This document shows, piece after piece, positions 1,726 through 54,171 of a stretch of 64,000 nt of DNA (the stretch's first letter is position 1; each line of letters opens with the position of its first letter). The stretch comes from Streptomonospora litoralis (GTDB taxonomy: Bacteria > Actinomycetota > Actinomycetes > Streptosporangiales > Streptosporangiaceae). Where the stretch lies: assembly GCF_004323735.1 (NCBI RefSeq), contig NZ_CP036455.1, positions 2,289,101-2,353,100 of the forward strand, given 5' to 3'. Made by a program: the position numbers and the translations under genes. The notes beneath the pieces were generated by a model. The model was not told the origin of the DNA, did not search any database, and saw only the letters and a program-made list of their open reading frames with translations.

Positions 1726-3045
1726 TCAGCGCGTCGCGGGCGGTCCGCCCGGGCCGGAGGGTCTTCCCGCCCTGTCTGCGCCGGGCGCGGTCGACACCCC
1801 GGCCGCCGGCTCCGTGCTCGCCGGGGAGCGGTAGACCAGCCGCCGCATCAGCGCCTCGGCCGGCCCGCGGCGGCCGGCGCGCTCCAGGCCGTAGGCTCCG
1901 ACCAGCGTGACCAGCCACACGCCCACGGCGAACAGTGCCATCGTCGCGCTGCCCAGTTGCGCGCCCAGCCCCAGCCCCCAGGCGGCCAGCAGCGGAGCGC
2001 AGATCACCGACTGGGCCAGGTAGCACGACAGCGAGCGCTTGCCGACGGCGGCGACGGCGACCACGCCCGCACCGCGCCGCGCCCGGCGGGCCAGCGCATC
2101 GCCGACCAGGCCGAACAGGGCGACGTAGCCGGGCCCGCCGAGGACGCCGCTCATCTGCCGCACCCCGCCCAGCGAGAGTGCGACGGTTTCGGATGCGTCG
2201 ACGAGCCCGACGTGGACCAGCGCTTCGGGCAGCCCGCATAGCCACGCGCCGCCGATCCCGATCGCGGCCGTCCAGGCCAGTAGGCCGCGGTAGTGCTCGG
2301 TCCGCTCCAATACGCGGAGTCGGCCGATCGCCATGCCCAGCGCGATCATGGCCGGTATGACCGGCATGAGTACCGTCAGTGGCAGCAAGAAGAGCCAGCC
2401 GAGGATTCGGGGGCCGATGGAGGCGAAGTAGCCGGGTTCGCTGAAGCTGTCGTAGAAGAAGCCGGGCGATCCCGCGGCCTGTTCCCCGCCCCCTGCCGGG
2501 ATCAGCGTGGCCGCGGCCGCCGACAGGCCGAGGATCAGCAGCAGCGCCAGTGAGAGTCCGACCAGCACGGCGGCGGTGACGCGCATCGCCCGCTCGCTGC
2601 GGCGCAGTAGTAGCCAGCCCAGGACCAGGCCGGTCAGGCCGTAGGCGGCCAGGATGTCCCCGGTGAACAGCAGGGCCGCGTGCGCGAAACCGAGCACCAG
2701 AAGCCACAGGTTGCGGCGTTGCACGACCGCGGCGGCCGCCTTGATCCGGGTGCCGGCCTCGCGCTGGCGGTCGTAGAGGCGGATCAGCCCGTAGCCGAAC
2801 AGAAGGGCGAACATCGGCAGGATGCGCCCGTCCACCGCCGTGAGCATGGCGAACTGCACGACGCGGTCGACCGCCGATCCGTCGGCGGGATGGGCGACCG
2901 TGCCCGCCTGCTGGGCGGCGTACAGATACCAGGGTGTGTTGGCCAGCGCGATGAGCAGCAGCATGAACCCGCGCGCGAGGTCGGGCGCCGGCGCCCGCTC
3001 GTCGGGGCGCACGGGACCGCGGGCGGGGTCTCGGATGGCGTCCAC
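1726..3045 (-). CDS. DUF418 family integral membrane protein
   Basis: A 439-residue, strongly hydrophobic protein with about ten predicted membrane spans. The N-terminal ARGFMLLLIALANTPW, the GRILPMFALLFGYG segment and the C-terminal block with KRSLSCYLAQS match the DUF418/YeiB family, whose role is not firmly established although transport has been suggested. The GTG at 3045 is preferred over an upstream ATG because it has GGAGG eight bases before it, and the extra upstream residues are low-complexity. It lies alone on the minus strand between an NmrA-like gene and a long repeat-filled intergenic region. Confidence 0.85.
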   Translation of the reverse strand: MDAIRDPARGPVRPDERAPAPDLARGFMLLLIALANTPWYLYAAQQAGTVAHPADGSAVDRVVQFAMLTAVDGRILPMFALLFGYGLIRLYDRQREAGTRIKAAAAVVQRRNLWLLVLGFAHAALLFTGDILAAYGLTGLVLGWLLLRRSERAMRVTAAVLVGLSLALLLILGLSAAAATLIPAGGGEQAAGSPGFFYDSFSEPGYFASIGPRILGWLFLLPLTVLMPVIPAMIALGMAIGRLRVLERTEHYRGLLAWTAAIGIGGAWLCGLPEALVHVGLVDASETVALSLGGVRQMSGVLGGPGYVALFGLVGDALARRARRGAGVVAVAAVGKRSLSCYLAQSVICAPLLAAWGLGLGAQLGSATMALFAVGVWLVTLVGAYGLERAGRRGPAEALMRRLVYRSPASTEPAAGVSTAPGADRAGRPSGPGGPPATR

Positions 3046-3913
3046 GGCAGTGCCTCCAGCAGGGGATGAAGGTCCCCCGAAGGGGGCTTTTCCCTCAGAA
3101 TGCACCAATCGCCGTTGCGACGGCATCCTCCGCAAGTCGGTAGGCCCCCCGACTTCCGGCTCGGGCCGGTCCCTGAGAGGCGGTAGGGGTAGGCGTCCGG
3201 GCCTGTGGTGGTCGGGTTGGGTGTTCGCCGGTGGCGCGCCCGGCGGGGGCGGCTCAGGCCCGCTGAGCGGCCTTGCCGACCTGCCGGGAAACGGGCGGAC
3301 TTAACGGAAAAGCGGCGGCGACGACGGCGGGGCCGGGCCTGCGTGGTCGGGGCGGCGGTCACCGGCCCCGGCCGCGGTGGTCGAGCCCCGGGGGGCCGCC
3401 GCCCGGTTGTCGGCGCGGGCCTGCGGGGCGGTGGGCGGCGGCCATACAGCCGGATCGGGCCACGAGATGCACCTACGTGCGGCGGCATCGGCCTCGGCGT
3501 CGCCCCGACGTGCCGTCCTGGCGCTGCCATTCCGCGATACGAAACAACACGGGGTGCTTTGTCCGCCAATGCCCGATTCCTCGGTGGGTCCGCGGCCGCG
3601 CTGCGGCGGCGGTGGCCCACGAAGCGCGCCGAATGGCGCGAAAACAGTCCCGGAGTCAACTTTTCGTGCGCCTCGTGGCCGCGGCGCCCGCCGAGACCGC
3701 CCGCAAAACGGACATAGACCCCCAAAAGCCCACCCCATCAGAGGGGTGGAGCCCCCGGGGGCCGCGCCCGGGCGCCACGAGCGACGTGTCGTCGCCCCCC
3801 GGCCCCCGATCCGGCGCACTCCCGGGGCGTGCGAGCACCCGCGACCGCGCCCCGCAGCGCGGCCACCCCCACGCGCGGGCCCGGCCCCAACGCGGCGGCA
3901 CCCAGCCGGCCAA
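3046..3913. other. Gene-free stretch with repeat fragments
   Basis: I see no credible gene here. The open frames on both strands are Arg/Pro/Gly-rich, lack a ribosome-binding site and match no family. It holds an inverted copy of repeat module B (about 3270-3362) and a small hairpin, CCACCCC/GGGGTGG, at 3730-3749. Base composition is GC-rich but less regular than in flanking genes, with short AT-richer spots near 3530-3560 and 3640-3670. It could hold eroded coding DNA, but I cannot identify any. Confidence 0.5.
3270..3362 (-). repeat. Repeat module B, copy 1 (inverted)
   Basis: Read on the minus strand this contains CGCCGCCGCTTTTCCGTTA, then CCGCCCGTTTCCCGGCAGG and TCGGCAAGGCCGC. The same order of blocks (GCCGC-TTTTCCGT, CCACCCG, CCCGGCAGA, CAACAAG-GCCGC) occurs near 4.2 kb and 25.1 kb and, more eroded, near 4.4 kb. 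GGTGACCGCC lies about 50 bases before the TTTTCCG block, as in the 4.4-kb and 25.1-kb copies. No reading frame is shared cleanly, so I treat it as a non-coding dispersed repeat. Confidence 0.6.
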
Positions 3914-4021
3914 CCGGCGCCGGTATGTCCGGTATGCCGGTTCATCCGGCGATGATCGCGAACTTATGGCCGCGGAATACGCCTTCCTGCGACCATAAGT
4001 TCGCGATAGACGGGAGAAGCC
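3914..4021 (-). repeat. Palindromic repeat module A, copy 1
   Basis: The core reads GCGAACTTATGGCCGC at 3958-3973, a 16-17 base centre, then GCGACCATAAGTTCGC at 3990-4005, a near-perfect long dyad. The reverse complement of the whole interval matches copy 3 (53947-54047) almost base for base over about 100 bases, including the flank ATCGCCGGATG and the segment CCGGCATACCGGACATACCGG. Copy 2 (24987-25054) shares the core and the GACGGGAGAAGCC flank. The similarity outside the dyad shows a mobile or duplicated unit and not just convergent hairpins. Confidence 0.8.
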
Positions 4022-4159
4022 GGGACCGGTGCCGCCCAACGCAGGGTTTTAACCAGACAGCGGCCGCGGGTTCAGGGGGTGAGTGCAACACCGGCTCCGC
4101 ACGGAGGTGTTGTGATGAATACCCACCCCCGGGGGGCGGCCCCCGCTGCCCGCCGAACA

Positions 4160-4275
4160 CGAGCACCGGGTGCGTCGGCCGCCGGCCGGACCCGGCGCCG
4201 TCCTCGGCGCCGCTTTTCCGTGAGGCCACCCGTTTCCCGGCAGACCAACAAGGCCGCACAGCCAACCGCTGCCGC
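4160..4275 (+). repeat. Repeat module B, copy 2
   Basis: Contains GCGCCGCTTTTCCGTGAG, CCACCCGTTTCCCGGCAGAC and CAACAAGGCCGCACAGCC at about 4207-4263. It is nearly identical in block order to the copies at 3270-3362 (inverted) and 25078-25197. It lies 140-250 bases downstream of palindrome copy 1, in the interval 3' of the polyprenyl synthetase gene. Confidence 0.6.
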
Positions 4276-4285
4276 CCCGCCGCAA

Positions 4286-4392
4286 CCGCCACCGGCGGCA
4301 CCCGACCCGGTGACCGCGGGCCCGGCCATCCGGCGCCCTCGCCGCCCCTCGCCGGCCGCCGCCACCGGCGGCACCCGACCCGGTGACCGCGG
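4286..4392 (+). repeat. 34-bp direct repeat, two copies 73 bp apart
   Basis: A 34-base segment beginning CCGCCACCGGCGGCACCCGA and ending GGTGACCGCGG occurs at 4286-4319 and again at 4359-4392. It links module B copies 2 and 3 and suggests that the B region grew by local duplication. Confidence 0.7.
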
Positions 4393-4484
4393 AGCCCGGC
4401 CCCGCTGCCACCGTTGCCGCCGCCTCCCCGAAGACACCCGCACGCCGGCAGACCAACAAGACCGCACAGCAGACCCGACCCGCC
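4359..4484 (+). repeat. Repeat module B, copy 3 (eroded)
   Basis: Shares GGTGACCGCGG, GGCCCCGCTGCCACCGT, GCCGCCGC, ACACCCG and CGGCAGACCAACAAGACCGC with the 25.1-kb copy, but the TTTTCCGT block is altered to CTCCCCGA. It ends in CAGCAGACCCGACCCGCC, an 18-base string that recurs at 54054-54071 just after palindrome copy 3. Confidence 0.55.
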
Positions 4485-4519
4485 CTACGTCGGTCGCCCT
4501 GCCCGCCTTAGCGGTCAGC

Positions 4520-4597: not shown

Positions 4598-5668
4598 TCA
4601 GTGCTTGCGGGCGGTGGCGGCGACGACGAGGTCGGCGAGGGCCGAGCGGGCGGTGGCGTCGATCCGCCCGGTCTCCAACGCCGCGGTGGCCTGGGCGACG
4701 TAGTCGTCGATGCGGCGCTCGCAGGCCGCGAGGGCGCCGCAGTCCTCGGCCGCACCGCGCATCCACTCGACCGTCTCGGCGCTCAGCAAGGGGTCGCCCA
4801 GATGGCGCAGGAACTCCGCGCGGTCGGCGGATCCGGTCCGCTCCAGCGTCTCGGCGACGATGAGGGTGCGCTTGCCCTCCCGCAGGTCGTCCCCCGCTGG
4901 CTTGCCGGTCTGCTCGGGGTCGCCGAAGACGCCGAGGATGTCGTCGCGCAGTTGGAAGGCCACCCCCAGCGGCAGCCCGTAGTCGGTGTAGACGGGCGCG
5001 AGGTCGTCGTAGCGCCCGGCCAGCGCGGCGCCCAGGTGCAGCGGCCGCTGCACGGTGTACTTGGCCGCCTTGTAGTGCATGACCCGCAGCGTCGCCTCGA
5101 CGCCGCCGTCCTCGCGCACCTGTTCCAGCATGTCCAGGTACTGCCCGGCCATCACCTCGGTGCGCATCGCGTCGAAGGGGACGCGCCCGGTTTGCAGCGC
5201 CTCCGGGCCCAGCCCGCTGGCCTGGTAGAGGTCCTCGCTCCAGGCCAGGCACAGATCGCCGATCAGGATCGCGGCGCCGCGGCCGAACGCTTCGGCCGAG
5301 CCCGTCCAGCCCGAGGCCGCGTGGAGGCTCTCCAGGCGCTTGTGGGTGGCGGGCAGGCCGCGGCGGGTGTCGCTGTTGTCGATCACGTCGTCGTGGATCA
5401 GCGCGCAGGCCTGCAGGAATTCCAGCGAGGCCGCGGCGGCGTGGATCCCGGCGACGTCGGCGCCGCCGGCTCCGCGCCACCCCCAGTAGCAGAACGCCGG
5501 GCGCAGCCGCTTGCCCCCCGCGAGCATGGCCTCCAACGCGTCGGCGACCGGCACCAGCTCGGAGCCGACCTCCAGCAGCTGGGCGCGCCGCCGGTCGAGG
5601 AAGCGGGCGATCTCCCCGTCGACGGCGGCGCGGACGAAGGAGACCGGGGAGGAGGCGGAGAAGGACAT
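4598..5668 (-). CDS. Polyprenyl (geranylgeranyl-type) diphosphate synthase
   Basis: A 356-residue trans-isoprenyl diphosphate synthase. It condenses isopentenyl diphosphate with allylic diphosphates to supply prenyl chains for quinones, carotenoids or lipid carriers. Visible signatures are GGKRLRPAF near residue 51, the first Asp-rich motif in LIHDDVIDNSDTRRG, and the second in FQLRDDILGVFGD, together with the KAAKYTVQRP segment. Length fits bacterial (all-E) synthases. It is divergent from metF with 72 bases between them, so both promoters must lie in that short gap. Chain length cannot be assigned with confidence. Confidence 0.93.
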   Translation of the reverse strand: MSFSASSPVSFVRAAVDGEIARFLDRRRAQLLEVGSELVPVADALEAMLAGGKRLRPAFCYWGWRGAGGADVAGIHAAAASLEFLQACALIHDDVIDNSDTRRGLPATHKRLESLHAASGWTGSAEAFGRGAAILIGDLCLAWSEDLYQASGLGPEALQTGRVPFDAMRTEVMAGQYLDMLEQVREDGGVEATLRVMHYKAAKYTVQRPLHLGAALAGRYDDLAPVYTDYGLPLGVAFQLRDDILGVFGDPEQTGKPAGDDLREGKRTLIVAETLERTGSADRAEFLRHLGDPLLSAETVEWMRGAAEDCGALAACERRIDDYVAQATAALETGRIDATARSALADLVVAATARKH

Positions 5669-24502: not shown

Positions 24503-24994
24503 GTGAACGGGAAGAAGAAGGGAATGCCCGTGGCTATGGAACTATGCGAGCGCCCGCACACGGTCGAGGCCGACCCGGTTCGCGTGATCGCCGAGCAGAT
24601 GGTTGTTCCCGAGGGCTCGAATGTGGAGATCCTCGGAGGACGCATCTACGTGAGTGCAGCGCCCATGCATGTTCTCATCGCCCATGAGATCATGGAGCAG
24701 TTGATGGAGCGGTTCTCCGGCACGGATCGCTGTCCGACGACGGCTGGTGCGGCCGTTGGAGTGGACATCAGAAAAGGGGACTTCGTCATCCCCGATGTCG
24801 TGCTGACAACCCGCAGTGCCCTCCATGTGGATCGGCCGATGCTGCCCGTAGCGGATGTCGAATTCGTCGTCGAGGTGGTTTCCAAGGGGAGCGTCGAGAA
24901 GGACGTCGAAATCCTCCCGACGCTGTACGCCGAGTGGGGGATGCCGATCTACCTGCTTGTAGACCCGCGAGCGGTCTTGTGGCGCCTATCGTGA
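24503..24994 (+). CDS. Uma2 family (PD-(D/E)XK) endonuclease-like protein, C-terminally truncated
   Basis: Up to 163 residues. VPEGSNVEILGGRIYVSAAP, IPDVVLTT and EFVVEVVSKGS are the Glu, Asp and Glu-x-Val segments of the Uma2 nuclease fold; AEWGMPIYLLVDP is the usual next helix-strand. Family members continue for roughly 25-50 residues (the intact relative at 33870-34502 does), but here the frame ends six codons later (RAVLWRLS), where palindromic repeat copy 2 begins. The gene therefore looks cut by the repeat and may be inactive. Start is uncertain: GTG 24503, ATG 24524, or GTG 24530 with AAGGGA at six bases. Codon third positions are less GC-biased than in neighbours. Confidence 0.8.
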   Translation: MNGKKKGMPVAMELCERPHTVEADPVRVIAEQMVVPEGSNVEILGGRIYVSAAPMHVLIAHEIMEQLMERFSGTDRCPTTAGAAVGVDIRKGDFVIPDVVLTTRSALHVDRPMLPVADVEFVVEVVSKGSVEKDVEILPTLYAEWGMPIYLLVDPRAVLWRLS

Positions 24995-25054
24995 ACTTAT
25001 GGTCGCGGAATGCGCTTTCCGGGGTCATAAGTGCACGGTAGACGGGAGAAGCCG
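24987..25054 (+). repeat. Palindromic repeat module A, copy 2
   Basis: TATCGTGAACTTATGGTCGC followed by GGAATGCGCTTTCC and GTCATAAGTGCACGGTAGAC. The core aligns with copies 1 and 3, and GTAGACGGGAGAAGCCG matches copy 1 on the right. The right arm has decayed (GTGCACGG against GTTCGCGA). The first bases overlap the last codons of the truncated Uma2 gene. Confidence 0.8.
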
Positions 25055-25077
25055 CCGGGCCGCTCCGCCGGCCGCCG

Positions 25078-25197
25078 TCACCGGCGAGCCCCCGACGCGG
25101 TGGGCGCAGGCCTGGCCCCGCTGCCACCGTCGCCGCCGCTTTTCCGTAAGACCACCCGCCGCCCGGCAGATCAGCAAGACCGCGCAGCCAACCCGAG
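25078..25197 (+). repeat. Repeat module B, copy 4
   Basis: Blocks GCCCCGCTGCCACCGTCGCC, GCCGCTTTTCCGTAAGACC, CCGCCCGGCAGATCAGCAAG and ACCGCGCAGCCAACCCG match copies 2 and 3. It follows palindrome copy 2 by 24 bases, so modules A and B form a composite here. I see no gene in 24995-25389 apart from a possible very short one. Confidence 0.65.
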
Positions 25198-25256
25198 CCG
25201 CCCCCGCCGACTCCGGCGCGGCCCCGGGAGCGCCTTCACGCGGCAGGGGTGTCTGG

Positions 25257-32620: not shown

Positions 32621-33775
32621 GTGAAGCTCGTCGTGCAGGTCAAACTCGTGCCCGATGCCGCACAGGCGTCCGCGCTGTCAGCGACCCTGCGCACTCTCAA
32701 CGAGGCCGCCAACCGGGTCTCGGCGGTGGCCTTCGACCTCGGTGTGCCGCGCACGAGCTGCGCAAGCACACCTACGCCGACCTGCGCTCCCAAGGTCTGG
32801 GCGCCCAGGCGGCCCAGCACACCATCAAGAAGGTCCGCGACGCCTACACGACGCTGGCGGCCGATATCCGGGCCGGCCACCTCGGCACACCCGGTTCGAA
32901 GCGCCGCCGCAACGCCGAGTCCGCGCCGATCTCCTTCCGGCCCCAGGCCGCCCCACCCCTTCGACGACCGGTGTCTGAGCTGGCAGTACGATCAACAGAG
33001 GGTCTCCATTTGGACCACCGCAGGCCGGTTGAAGAACGTGGGTTTCGCCTGCGCACCGGAGGCCCTCAAGACGCTGATCGAGCACCGGCAGGGCGAATCC
33101 GATCTGGTCGAACGCGACGGCGTGTTCTACCTGATGGCCACCTGCGAGGTGCCCGAAGCCGAACAGTATGAACCGGACGGGTTCATCGGTGTGGATCTGG
33201 GCATCGCCAACATCGCGACCACCTCCACCGGCTACCGGGCGGCCGGGCGGGGCTTGAACCGCCACCGCAAGCGCCAGGCCGCCCTGCGGACCAAACTCCA
33301 GGCCAAAAAGACGACATCGGCGAAACGCCGGCTCAAGAAACGCAACCGCCGCGAGCGGCGCGACGTTGCGAACACCAACCACGTCATCGCCAAGCAGATC
33401 GTGACCGAGGCTGAACGCACCTCATCCGGTATCGCCCTGGAAGACCTGACGGGCATCCGGCAGAGGGTACGGCTTTGCCGGCCCCAACGGGTCGCGATCC
33501 ATTCCTGGGCCTTCGCCCGGCTCGCCGCCTTCATCACCTACAAGGCCAAGCGGGCCGGGGTCCCGCTGGTCTCGGTGGATCCGGCCTACACCAGCCGGGA
33601 ATGCGCCGAATGCCGGTACATCGACACGAGGAACCGGGTCGATCAGGCCCGGTTCGTGTGCCGGTCGTGCGGGGTCGTTGCCCACGCCGACCGCAACGCT
33701 TCCCGCGCCATCGCCCGCCGGGGCGAGGCTGCGTGGAATGCGGGGCGTGAGTCGCGCGTCCCTGCCGCCCCGTAA
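32621..33775 (+). pseudogene. tnpB: IS200/IS605 family TnpB, with two compensating frameshifts
   Basis: A 384-codon open frame. TnpB is an RNA-guided nuclease of IS605-type elements. The RuvC-like triad is present: Asp192 (FIGVDLGIANIA), Glu274 (IALEDLTGI) and Asp357 (AHADRNASRA), with zinc-finger cysteines in ECAEC and CRSC. But residues about 42-112 are out of frame. The -1 frame there reads AHELRKHTYADLRSQGLG and continues to SAPISFRPQAA, a normal TnpB N-terminal region. A one-base loss near 32745 and a one-base gain near 32955 explain this. The frame is open but the N-terminal part is scrambled, so activity is doubtful. No tnpA is present. The DNA could also contain two sequencing errors. 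Confidence 0.8.
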
Positions 33776-33833
33776 GGGGTGTCTGGACGGAGGAGCCCAC
33801 CCGGCAGCCGGTCGGGCGGCTACCTCCAAGCCC

Positions 33834-33863
33834 GCCTATCAGGGCCTATCAGGGCCTATCAGG
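33834..33863 (+). repeat. 10-bp tandem repeat, three units, at the tnpB right side
   Basis: GCCTATCAGG repeated exactly three times, followed by GCC. It lies between the tnpB stop and the stop codon of the convergent Uma2 gene, within the zone where the element's right end and guide-RNA scaffold would be expected. Slippage or target-site copying could have made it. Confidence 0.85.
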
Positions 33864-41825: not shown

Positions 41826-41869
41826 GCCGGCGTGGCACACTGTTGGCAGATACATTGACACGACACGAC

Positions 41870-41997
41870 GCGTGCTCCGGGGTCGGTGAAAGTCCGAACC
41901 GGCGGTGACAGTCCGCGACCCGGCCGAGGCCATCGGCCGGTTGAACCGGTGGAATTCCGGTACCGACGGTGAAAGTCCGGATGGGAGGCAGTACGCG
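41870..41997 (+). promoter_or_regulatory. FMN riboswitch (RFN element)
   Basis: All the conserved RFN parts occur in order: GTGCTCCGGGGTCGGTGAAA, CCGAACCGGCGGTGACAGTC, CGCGACCCGGC, a variable arm, GGTTGAACCGGTGGAATTCC, TACCGACGGTGAAAGTCC and GGATGGGAGGCAGTACG. FMN binding shuts down rib expression. A GCGGG/CCCGC hairpin at 42015-42031 lies downstream without a T-run, so the switch may act on translation or by a Rho-type mechanism. TTGACA at 41855-41860 lies just upstream. Confidence 0.97.
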
Positions 41998-42112
41998 TGG
42001 GATACGGCCGAGTCGCGGGTGCTGTGCCCGCTCTTCGCGGTTCCCCCGGGCGGACCTGACCGCCTGCACGCCACCCCCGGAGCCCTGAGCAGGGTTAGGG
42101 GATGGATGGGAC

Positions 42113-53742: not shown

Positions 53743-53946
53743 CGTGGTGGCGGCGTCCCTCGGGGTTCTCACTGCTGCGGCAACGCGGCGCCGGGGGCGG
53801 CGCCGCGCCGTGCTGACCCCTTACAGACTAGGTGAGGCGGTGCCCGGCGAGAGGCGCCTGAGACCCGGATTCATCCCTGATCCCGCCGGGGCCTGCGTCG
53901 GGACGGTTTTCGGACGGGTGTCGGTGGACGCATCGAGTCGGCTTGG

Positions 53947-54047
53947 CCCGTCTATCGTGAACTTATGGTCGCAGGTAAGCGCATTCCTCGGCCATAAGTT
54001 CGCGACCATCGCCGGATGGACCGGCATACCGGACATACCGGCGCCGG
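53947..54047 (+). repeat. Palindromic repeat module A, copy 3
   Basis: CCCGTCTATCGTGAACTTAT through GGCCATAAGTTCGCGACCAT and on to GACATACCGGCGCCGG. Over about 100 bases it matches the reverse complement of copy 1 (3914-4021) with only scattered differences. CAGCAGACCCGACCCGCC at 54054-54071 then repeats the end of module B copy 3. It lies in the 429-base gap upstream of the kinase gene, which holds no other feature that I can support. Confidence 0.85.
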
Positions 54048-54171
54048 GCCGCCCAGCAGACCCGACCCGCCCCCGCCAGACGTCCAACCGGTCGGCACCC
54101 GGCCCCGGTGACCGCGGGGACAAGTCCCGTGCGAGTGCGTGCGAGGTGAACGGGCGGTCGGGCCCGGAAGG

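Follow-up and report, generated by a model that had tools for sequence, protein, structure and literature searches.

Module A of Streptomonospora litoralis: a candidate exchangeable hairpin module in mosaic intergenic islands with inverted tandem arms

Known mosaic repeats and the islands of S. litoralis

REP, BIME and REPIN sequences are extragenic palindromes, often species-specific, that occur in mosaic clusters, and gene conversion is said to have been raised for REPs by Higgins et al. in 1988. Pneumococcal BOX elements, which are intergenic and modular and contain an inner unit that is repeated, are smaller than the repeats described below and are not known to carry an inverted arm on each side. 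MITEs and palindrome-associated elements are non-coding, repeated and palindromic, and MITEs have fixed ends matched to a transposase. In foldback transposons, the arms contain sub-repeats. For Galileo, a Drosophila foldback element with long inverted arms around a middle segment, one report describes target-site duplications and chimeric copies produced by ectopic recombination, and work cited there assigns the element to the P superfamily (PMC2775673). CGTC-tagged REPs reportedly lack a dedicated transposase (PMC3733652).

Here, we analyzed a repeat in a window of S. litoralis DNA (the whole stretch under study, 64,000 bases) and in sampled blocks of the same chromosome. Judged from sequence, module A appears to be a hairpin module that can be exchanged within the core of gene-free intergenic islands, built as (arm units)n - core - (inverted arm units)m. 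Like REPs and REPINs, the islands contain many-copy palindromes outside genes and, like BIMEs, they are mosaic clusters of several extragenic motifs; in contrast to these, the palindrome forms one part of a larger unit that reaches 2 kb and has inverted tandem arms, cores differ between species and no RAYT was seen in a Y1_Tnp search of S. litoralis. CGTC is present in the flank of module A, a resemblance to CGTC-tagged REPs rather than an established tag. Long inverted arms of tandem sub-repeats around a core give the islands a foldback-like layout close to that of Galileo, which is eukaryotic and whose P-superfamily relation and target-site duplications were not found for the islands. BOX elements share the modular intergenic make-up and the repeated inner unit, whereas the islands are larger and carry inverted arms on both sides. 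With MITEs the islands share their non-coding, repeated and palindromic nature, but fixed ends matching a transposase were not seen, and no fixed terminal inverted repeats could be identified, island and tract ends lying at varying places. The islands are not assigned to the MITEs, no fixed ends having been seen, nor to the REPINs, no RAYT having been found among the Y1_Tnp matches. An earlier note on this DNA had suggested a MITE-like or REP-like element, possibly mobilized in trans; the REP/BIME-like position and mosaic make-up agree with our data, whereas MITE-like mobilization in trans is a less likely reading, neither fixed ends nor a clear target duplication having been observed. We file the islands as a new variant among intergenic mosaic repeats, one that works like an extragenic palindrome mosaic with foldback-type arms. 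No published report of such islands was found in the open-access literature searched.

Module A and the architecture of the islands

Positions 3914-4021 had been described as a dispersed palindromic element present in three copies within 50 kb, one of them inverted. All three copies are present, but two are inverted relative to the 53.9-kb copy. The claimed agreement over about 100 bases is real: the minus strand of 3914-4021 and the plus strand at ∼53.94-54.05 kb are identical at 99 of 108 positions, and the minus-strand copy at 24,987, said to share the core and one flank, matches at 60 of 74 positions. Hairpin RNA folds were predicted for all three copies on both strands (z between -8.3 and -4.3), in line with the proposed palindromic core. 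As noted before, the copies lie outside called genes or at a gene end, the one at 24,987 overlapping the last bases of a Uma2-family ORF (24503-24994) whose TGA stop sits inside module A. The proposed bounds of the first copy do delimit repeated sequence, but the repeat runs well past them within a larger island (Table 1). At the Uma2 site, flanking alignments are separated by 2.2-3.4 kb in relatives.

Table 1. Features of the repeat islands in the window and the genes flanking the first of them
Feature	Position	Strand	Basis
Repeat island: arm - D - H - A - K - E - opposite arm (core on minus strand)	3197..4498	-	self-comparison depth, motif order
Left arm, motifs in reverse orientation, limits approximate	3197..3409		arm-motif scan
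Core segment E (TTTCGTATCGCGGAATG), limits approximate	3524..3598	-	motif order
Core segment K (CTTTTGGGGGTCTATG), limits approximate	3699..3748	-	motif order
Module A: hairpin core plus flanks	3913..4021	-	repeat comparison
43-bp hairpin core GAACTTATGG...CCATAAGTTC	3960..4002		exact half-site search, RNA folding
Optional core module H (GCTGTCTGGTTAAAACCC), limits approximate	4022..4064	-	motif order
Optional core module D (TTCATCACAACACCTCC), limits approximate	4065..4145	-	motif order
Right arm, motifs oriented away from core, limits approximate	4145..4498		arm-motif scan
Short island: module A and one arm, behind Uma2-type ORF	24981..25218	-	self-comparison, motif order
Short island: module A and arm-like remnant	53939..54105	+	self-comparison, relatives
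Flanking gene, DUF418	1726..3045	-	gene calling, domain match
Flanking gene of the polyprenyl synthetase family, used as anchor for named relatives	4598..5668	-	gene calling, domain match

Within the window alone, a motif scan was unremarkable (5 matches, a count reached by 4 of 100 shuffles). The genome consists of a main contig of 5,814,190 bases and a second contig of 89,998 bases, and the search for further copies that had been proposed revealed 62 exact half-site pairs of the palindrome, far above three, versus none for the reversed control pattern, which rules out a three-copy curiosity. At least 40 copies showed at least 90% identity over most of a 117-bp query among the 40 of 120 first-look candidates that were scored, and a profile search identified 42 matches in 1.664 Mb of sampled sequence. 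It should be noted that the sampled blocks were picked after the first copy search and hold 25 of the 62 exact sites in 29% of the chromosome; because they are enriched in module A, we estimate ∼100 copies in the whole genome, scaled by the share of exact sites, rather than the 144 of a plain extrapolation. Selection for one RNA strand of the hairpin was considered, since one strand gives the better fold in 39 of 50 copies, and rejected: the bias hinges on one nearly fixed G-T pair, without which the strand asymmetry is weak (25 G-T versus 16 A-C cells).

Using a maximum self-comparison depth of at least 15 and excluding a CRISPR-like array, we identified 69 mosaic islands of 85-1,988 bp, which cover 53,850 of the 1,664,000 sampled bases (3.2%, which may be an overestimate given the A-rich blocks). 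Based on codon-usage gene calls made for this analysis, 68 of them have no overlap of more than 60 bp with a called gene, and the single exception overlaps an ORF matching an IS110-type transposase (L095, 4505-6067). All but one of the 42 module A matches lay in or beside islands, and 40 islands contained such a match. A CRISPR-like array was observed at L047 (G000:C1:26433-30497), with 20-mers occurring up to 82 times in the sample.

Cores are built up of modules, A being preceded by optional D, H and palindrome B and followed by segments K and E. Among 13 islands with the exact K motif, 9 carry A and 4 carry a hairpin module P in the same slot. Tandem arm units, for which a 137-bp consensus was built from 36 units, lie on both sides of the core. 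Where an island has a core motif, 139 of the 142 arm-motif matches to the left of that motif point left, and 122 of the 123 to the right of it point right (261 of 265 outward; four matches between core motifs were set aside, and each arm unit holds two motifs, so that matches rather than units are counted). In the outer 300 bp of the 36 islands of at least 800 bp, mean GC skew was +0.22 on the left (36 of 36 positive) and -0.21 on the right (35 of 36 negative), compared with -0.02 in genes and about 0 in 98 ordinary convergent gaps. Of 72 arms, 20 carry a G4 motif on their inward strand and 1 on its outward strand. Mean identity of arm units was highest within the same arm (0.842), followed by opposite arms (0.790) and different islands (0.772); because units are most alike within one arm, the arms probably grow through local duplication. 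Palindrome B forms perfect 56-bp dyads in 13 of 25 copies, comprising 8 different sequences. Its true arm pairs gave 636 of 700 Watson-Crick cells, versus a mean of 576 (s.d. 8, largest 604) in 2,000 re-dealings of arms among copies, a comparison that ignores common descent. Structure selection or templated repair is a possible cause of this pairing.

Placement behind gene ends and occurrence in relatives

Convergent gene pairs flank 27 of 68 islands versus 218 of 1,263 adjacent pairs overall (odds ratio 3.2, P = 3e-5); 32 islands lie between co-directional and 9 between divergent genes, and 1 more falls outside these classes. The distance from an island to gene 3' ends had a median of 84.5 bp, with 17 of 86 within 20 bp, whereas that to 5' ends had a median of 211 bp, with 0 of 51 within 20 bp. 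By these gene calls, islands are placed mostly behind gene ends. One study describes REPs as favoring positions between co-directional and convergent genes (PMC3733652). Across the 18 islands with module A between co-directional genes, neither orientation of the module was favored: the 11 between plus-strand genes have it 6 times on the minus and 5 times on the plus strand, and the 7 between minus-strand genes 4 and 3 times, respectively.

Comparison with relatives, in alignments of mostly 75-91% identity, indicated that the islands are missing at many orthologous sites. The 464-kb block around the window holds 21 islands, 14 of which had a comparable site in the same-genus genome G005; 12 of these gaps were shorter there (51-651 bp) and 2 longer, and no comparable islands were found across 400 kb of that genome. 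Shorter gaps were also found at five of six compared sites in Streptomonospora sp. PA3 (G004; 7-143 bp) and at four of six in G002. For instance, the gap holding the island at 53.9 kb is 276 bp here versus 7 bp in PA3. At the first site of the window, gaps are ∼140-215 bp in PA3, S. alba and G005, and 1.6-2.3 kb in S. mangrovi and G002, which have inverted arms (66-70% self-match) around a different core. A 1.1-kb gap was also seen at this site in Marinitenerispora (L194). The earlier description of a dispersed, palindromic, many-copy element outside genes was borne out, with presence in S. litoralis and absence at many orthologous sites.

With up to 40 candidates scored per genome, the G002 core matched 11 times in its own genome, weakly at 5 places in S. 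mangrovi and nowhere in S. litoralis. A sequence from PA3 matched 166 times in that genome, with many of the matches in tandem or self-inverted, and weakly in G005 (13), G001 (8) and S. litoralis (4). Intergenic hairpins of one family, some of them in tandem, are also abundant in PA3, together with short minisatellites (L162 13360-13600 and other loci). Among 44 loci examined in relatives, some overlapping, 19 have a flank in the sampled S. litoralis blocks; the two strong G002 islands fall at S. litoralis islands, and most others do not. At the G001 locus, a 51-bp gap corresponds to 2146-3533 of the S. litoralis counterpart. Relatives have islands with other cores, so the general shape recurs within Streptomonospora with sequences that differ between species, although not in every species.

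Module A itself had no match in 40 relatives, five of the same genus (all first-look candidates were scored in these five and at most 21 per genome elsewhere), and none in 80 loci of named relatives around one anchor gene. When the 460-bp core was searched against 200 genomes, short matches (∼40-140 bp, E 3e-7 to 3e-6) were found in 7 of the 199 other than S. litoralis; absences in this search are weak because three candidates per genome were scored. Exact-pattern scans of genome and viral contig collections gave no match, and the S. litoralis genome may itself be missing from them. Plasmid and phage collections contained no similar DNA at E 1e-5. The second contig, a potential prophage or episome of 90 kb, had no module A or island match; the density in the sampled blocks would predict two to four, and fewer once their bias is considered.

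Sharing of core tracts among islands

We detected 31 near-identical tracts between islands (at least 200 bp, at least 92% identity), none of which extended more than 30 bp outside the islands. In 19 tracts, all four ends lay more than 30 bp inside the islands; in 12, at least one end came within 30 bp of an edge, and one tract covered nearly a whole island. A 386-bp tract of ∼99% identity was internal to four islands. The clearest of nine profiled pairs (I8/I60) showed ∼420 bp at 97-100% identity with mostly 70-90% on either side. For most of the nine, at least one side of the tract drops to poor alignment or a gap, not to a diverged homologous island, some of these pairs having diverged homology on the other side; in I19/I20 high identity spans nearly all of I19. 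An independent case was found in G002, in which two islands 23 kb apart are identical at 784 of 798 bp, with ends inside repeated arms. Tract-sharing pairs (n = 27) had a median distance of 197 kb versus 1,288 kb for 1,485 pairs (P = 6e-4). Six islands at 0.58-0.78 Mb account for ten of these pairs, and the neighbor preference rests on this cluster: the remaining 17 pairs had a median of 446 kb (P = 0.30), and 2 of them lay within 150 kb, versus 12.5% expected.

From these tracts we infer that ectopic gene conversion may be the main route by which existing islands come to share module A, another process accounting for new sites. RecA-type homologous ectopic gene conversion or double crossover would trade core sequence between islands, and with arms and core supplying the homology for exchange, one core family would become common throughout a species. 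New islands would arise by a separate event and be tolerated behind stop codons. We give about an even chance to this combined reading, in which module A sits in islands that exchange cores by ectopic conversion or double crossover and new sites are filled separately. Against it, conversion leaves the filling of new sites unexplained, and edge-reaching tracts would fit whole-unit copying. In addition, the genome report states that repeats in the S. litoralis M2 assembly were corrected by hand (PMC8448680), which might homogenize copies.

Edge-reaching tracts also bear on a tentative alternative, a non-autonomous MITE-like or foldback-like element moved in trans by a transposase, with the patchwork added later through occasional recombination and arm growth. 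The shorter gaps at most sites in G005 and PA3, the many copies in one species, the inverted arms and hairpins, and the presence of an IS200/IS605-type Y1 transposase in the genome all agree with such an element, but constant ends or a clear target duplication were not seen and tract ends are variable and internal. Where island ends were compared with relatives, gaps were shorter and the intergenic sequence was too diverged for base-level alignment of target duplications; repeats at indel ends were mostly 0-6 bp among the 45 of 87 indel classes listed. A search for Y1_Tnp, the sole transposase family searched genome-wide, gave one full-length and two partial matches in S. litoralis, and no module A or island match was present in these three loci (∼3 kb each), and a REP plus RAYT system was rejected on this basis. 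The full-length transposase adjoins an OrfB_IS605/TnpB-like ORF (E 1e-4, below cut-off), and this pair (L132) adjoins a 155-aa ORF with a TetR_N match, possibly cut short. Separately, a segment of ∼680 bp (33179-33856) occurs in about four copies across the sampled chromosome; as a called gene at 33038-33775 matches OrfB_IS605 and a Cas12f1-like TNB domain, the segment looks like TnpB-type gene copies.

A host-useful role as gene-end structures, that is, bidirectional barriers or 3'-end structures met in the same G-rich sense from both sides, seems slightly less likely than this alternative. The convergent-pair excess, the proximity to 3' but not 5' ends, the mirror GC skew and the inward G4 motifs are what such structures would show, but selection against damage alone would give an identical placement, islands are missing at most compared sites in relatives, and neither the unbiased orientation of module A at co-directional genes nor the weak strand asymmetry of its hairpin favors the idea. 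Far less probable still is that the islands are decayed members of a gene family or encode a structured non-coding RNA. Strong hairpins and the pairing excess of palindrome B would be compatible with an RNA, but cores are optional and rearranged, and decayed genes were rejected on the near-complete lack of called genes in islands. At the gathering threshold, Rfam matched in the window only an FMN riboswitch (41868-41998, plus strand, 93 bits), so that no known RNA family accounts for the repeat there, and when the main island was scanned permissively, three matches to microRNA precursors were obtained that lay far below that threshold.

Mirror-symmetric non-genic islands make up about 3% of the sampled chromosome, a large share for a bacterium, and they vary between sister species. 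As a broader and more speculative proposal, bacterial elements might spread without an enzyme of their own, with inverted tandem arms maintaining homology while cores compete through ectopic gene conversion and give rise to species-specific core families. If cores compete by conversion, each Streptomonospora species would come to carry a core family of its own in islands of foldback shape, and if enzyme-free spread is true, the perfect dyads of palindrome B would record hairpin-templated copying. If the copying pattern holds, whether REPs spread by gene conversion or by transposition, an old question, becomes testable.
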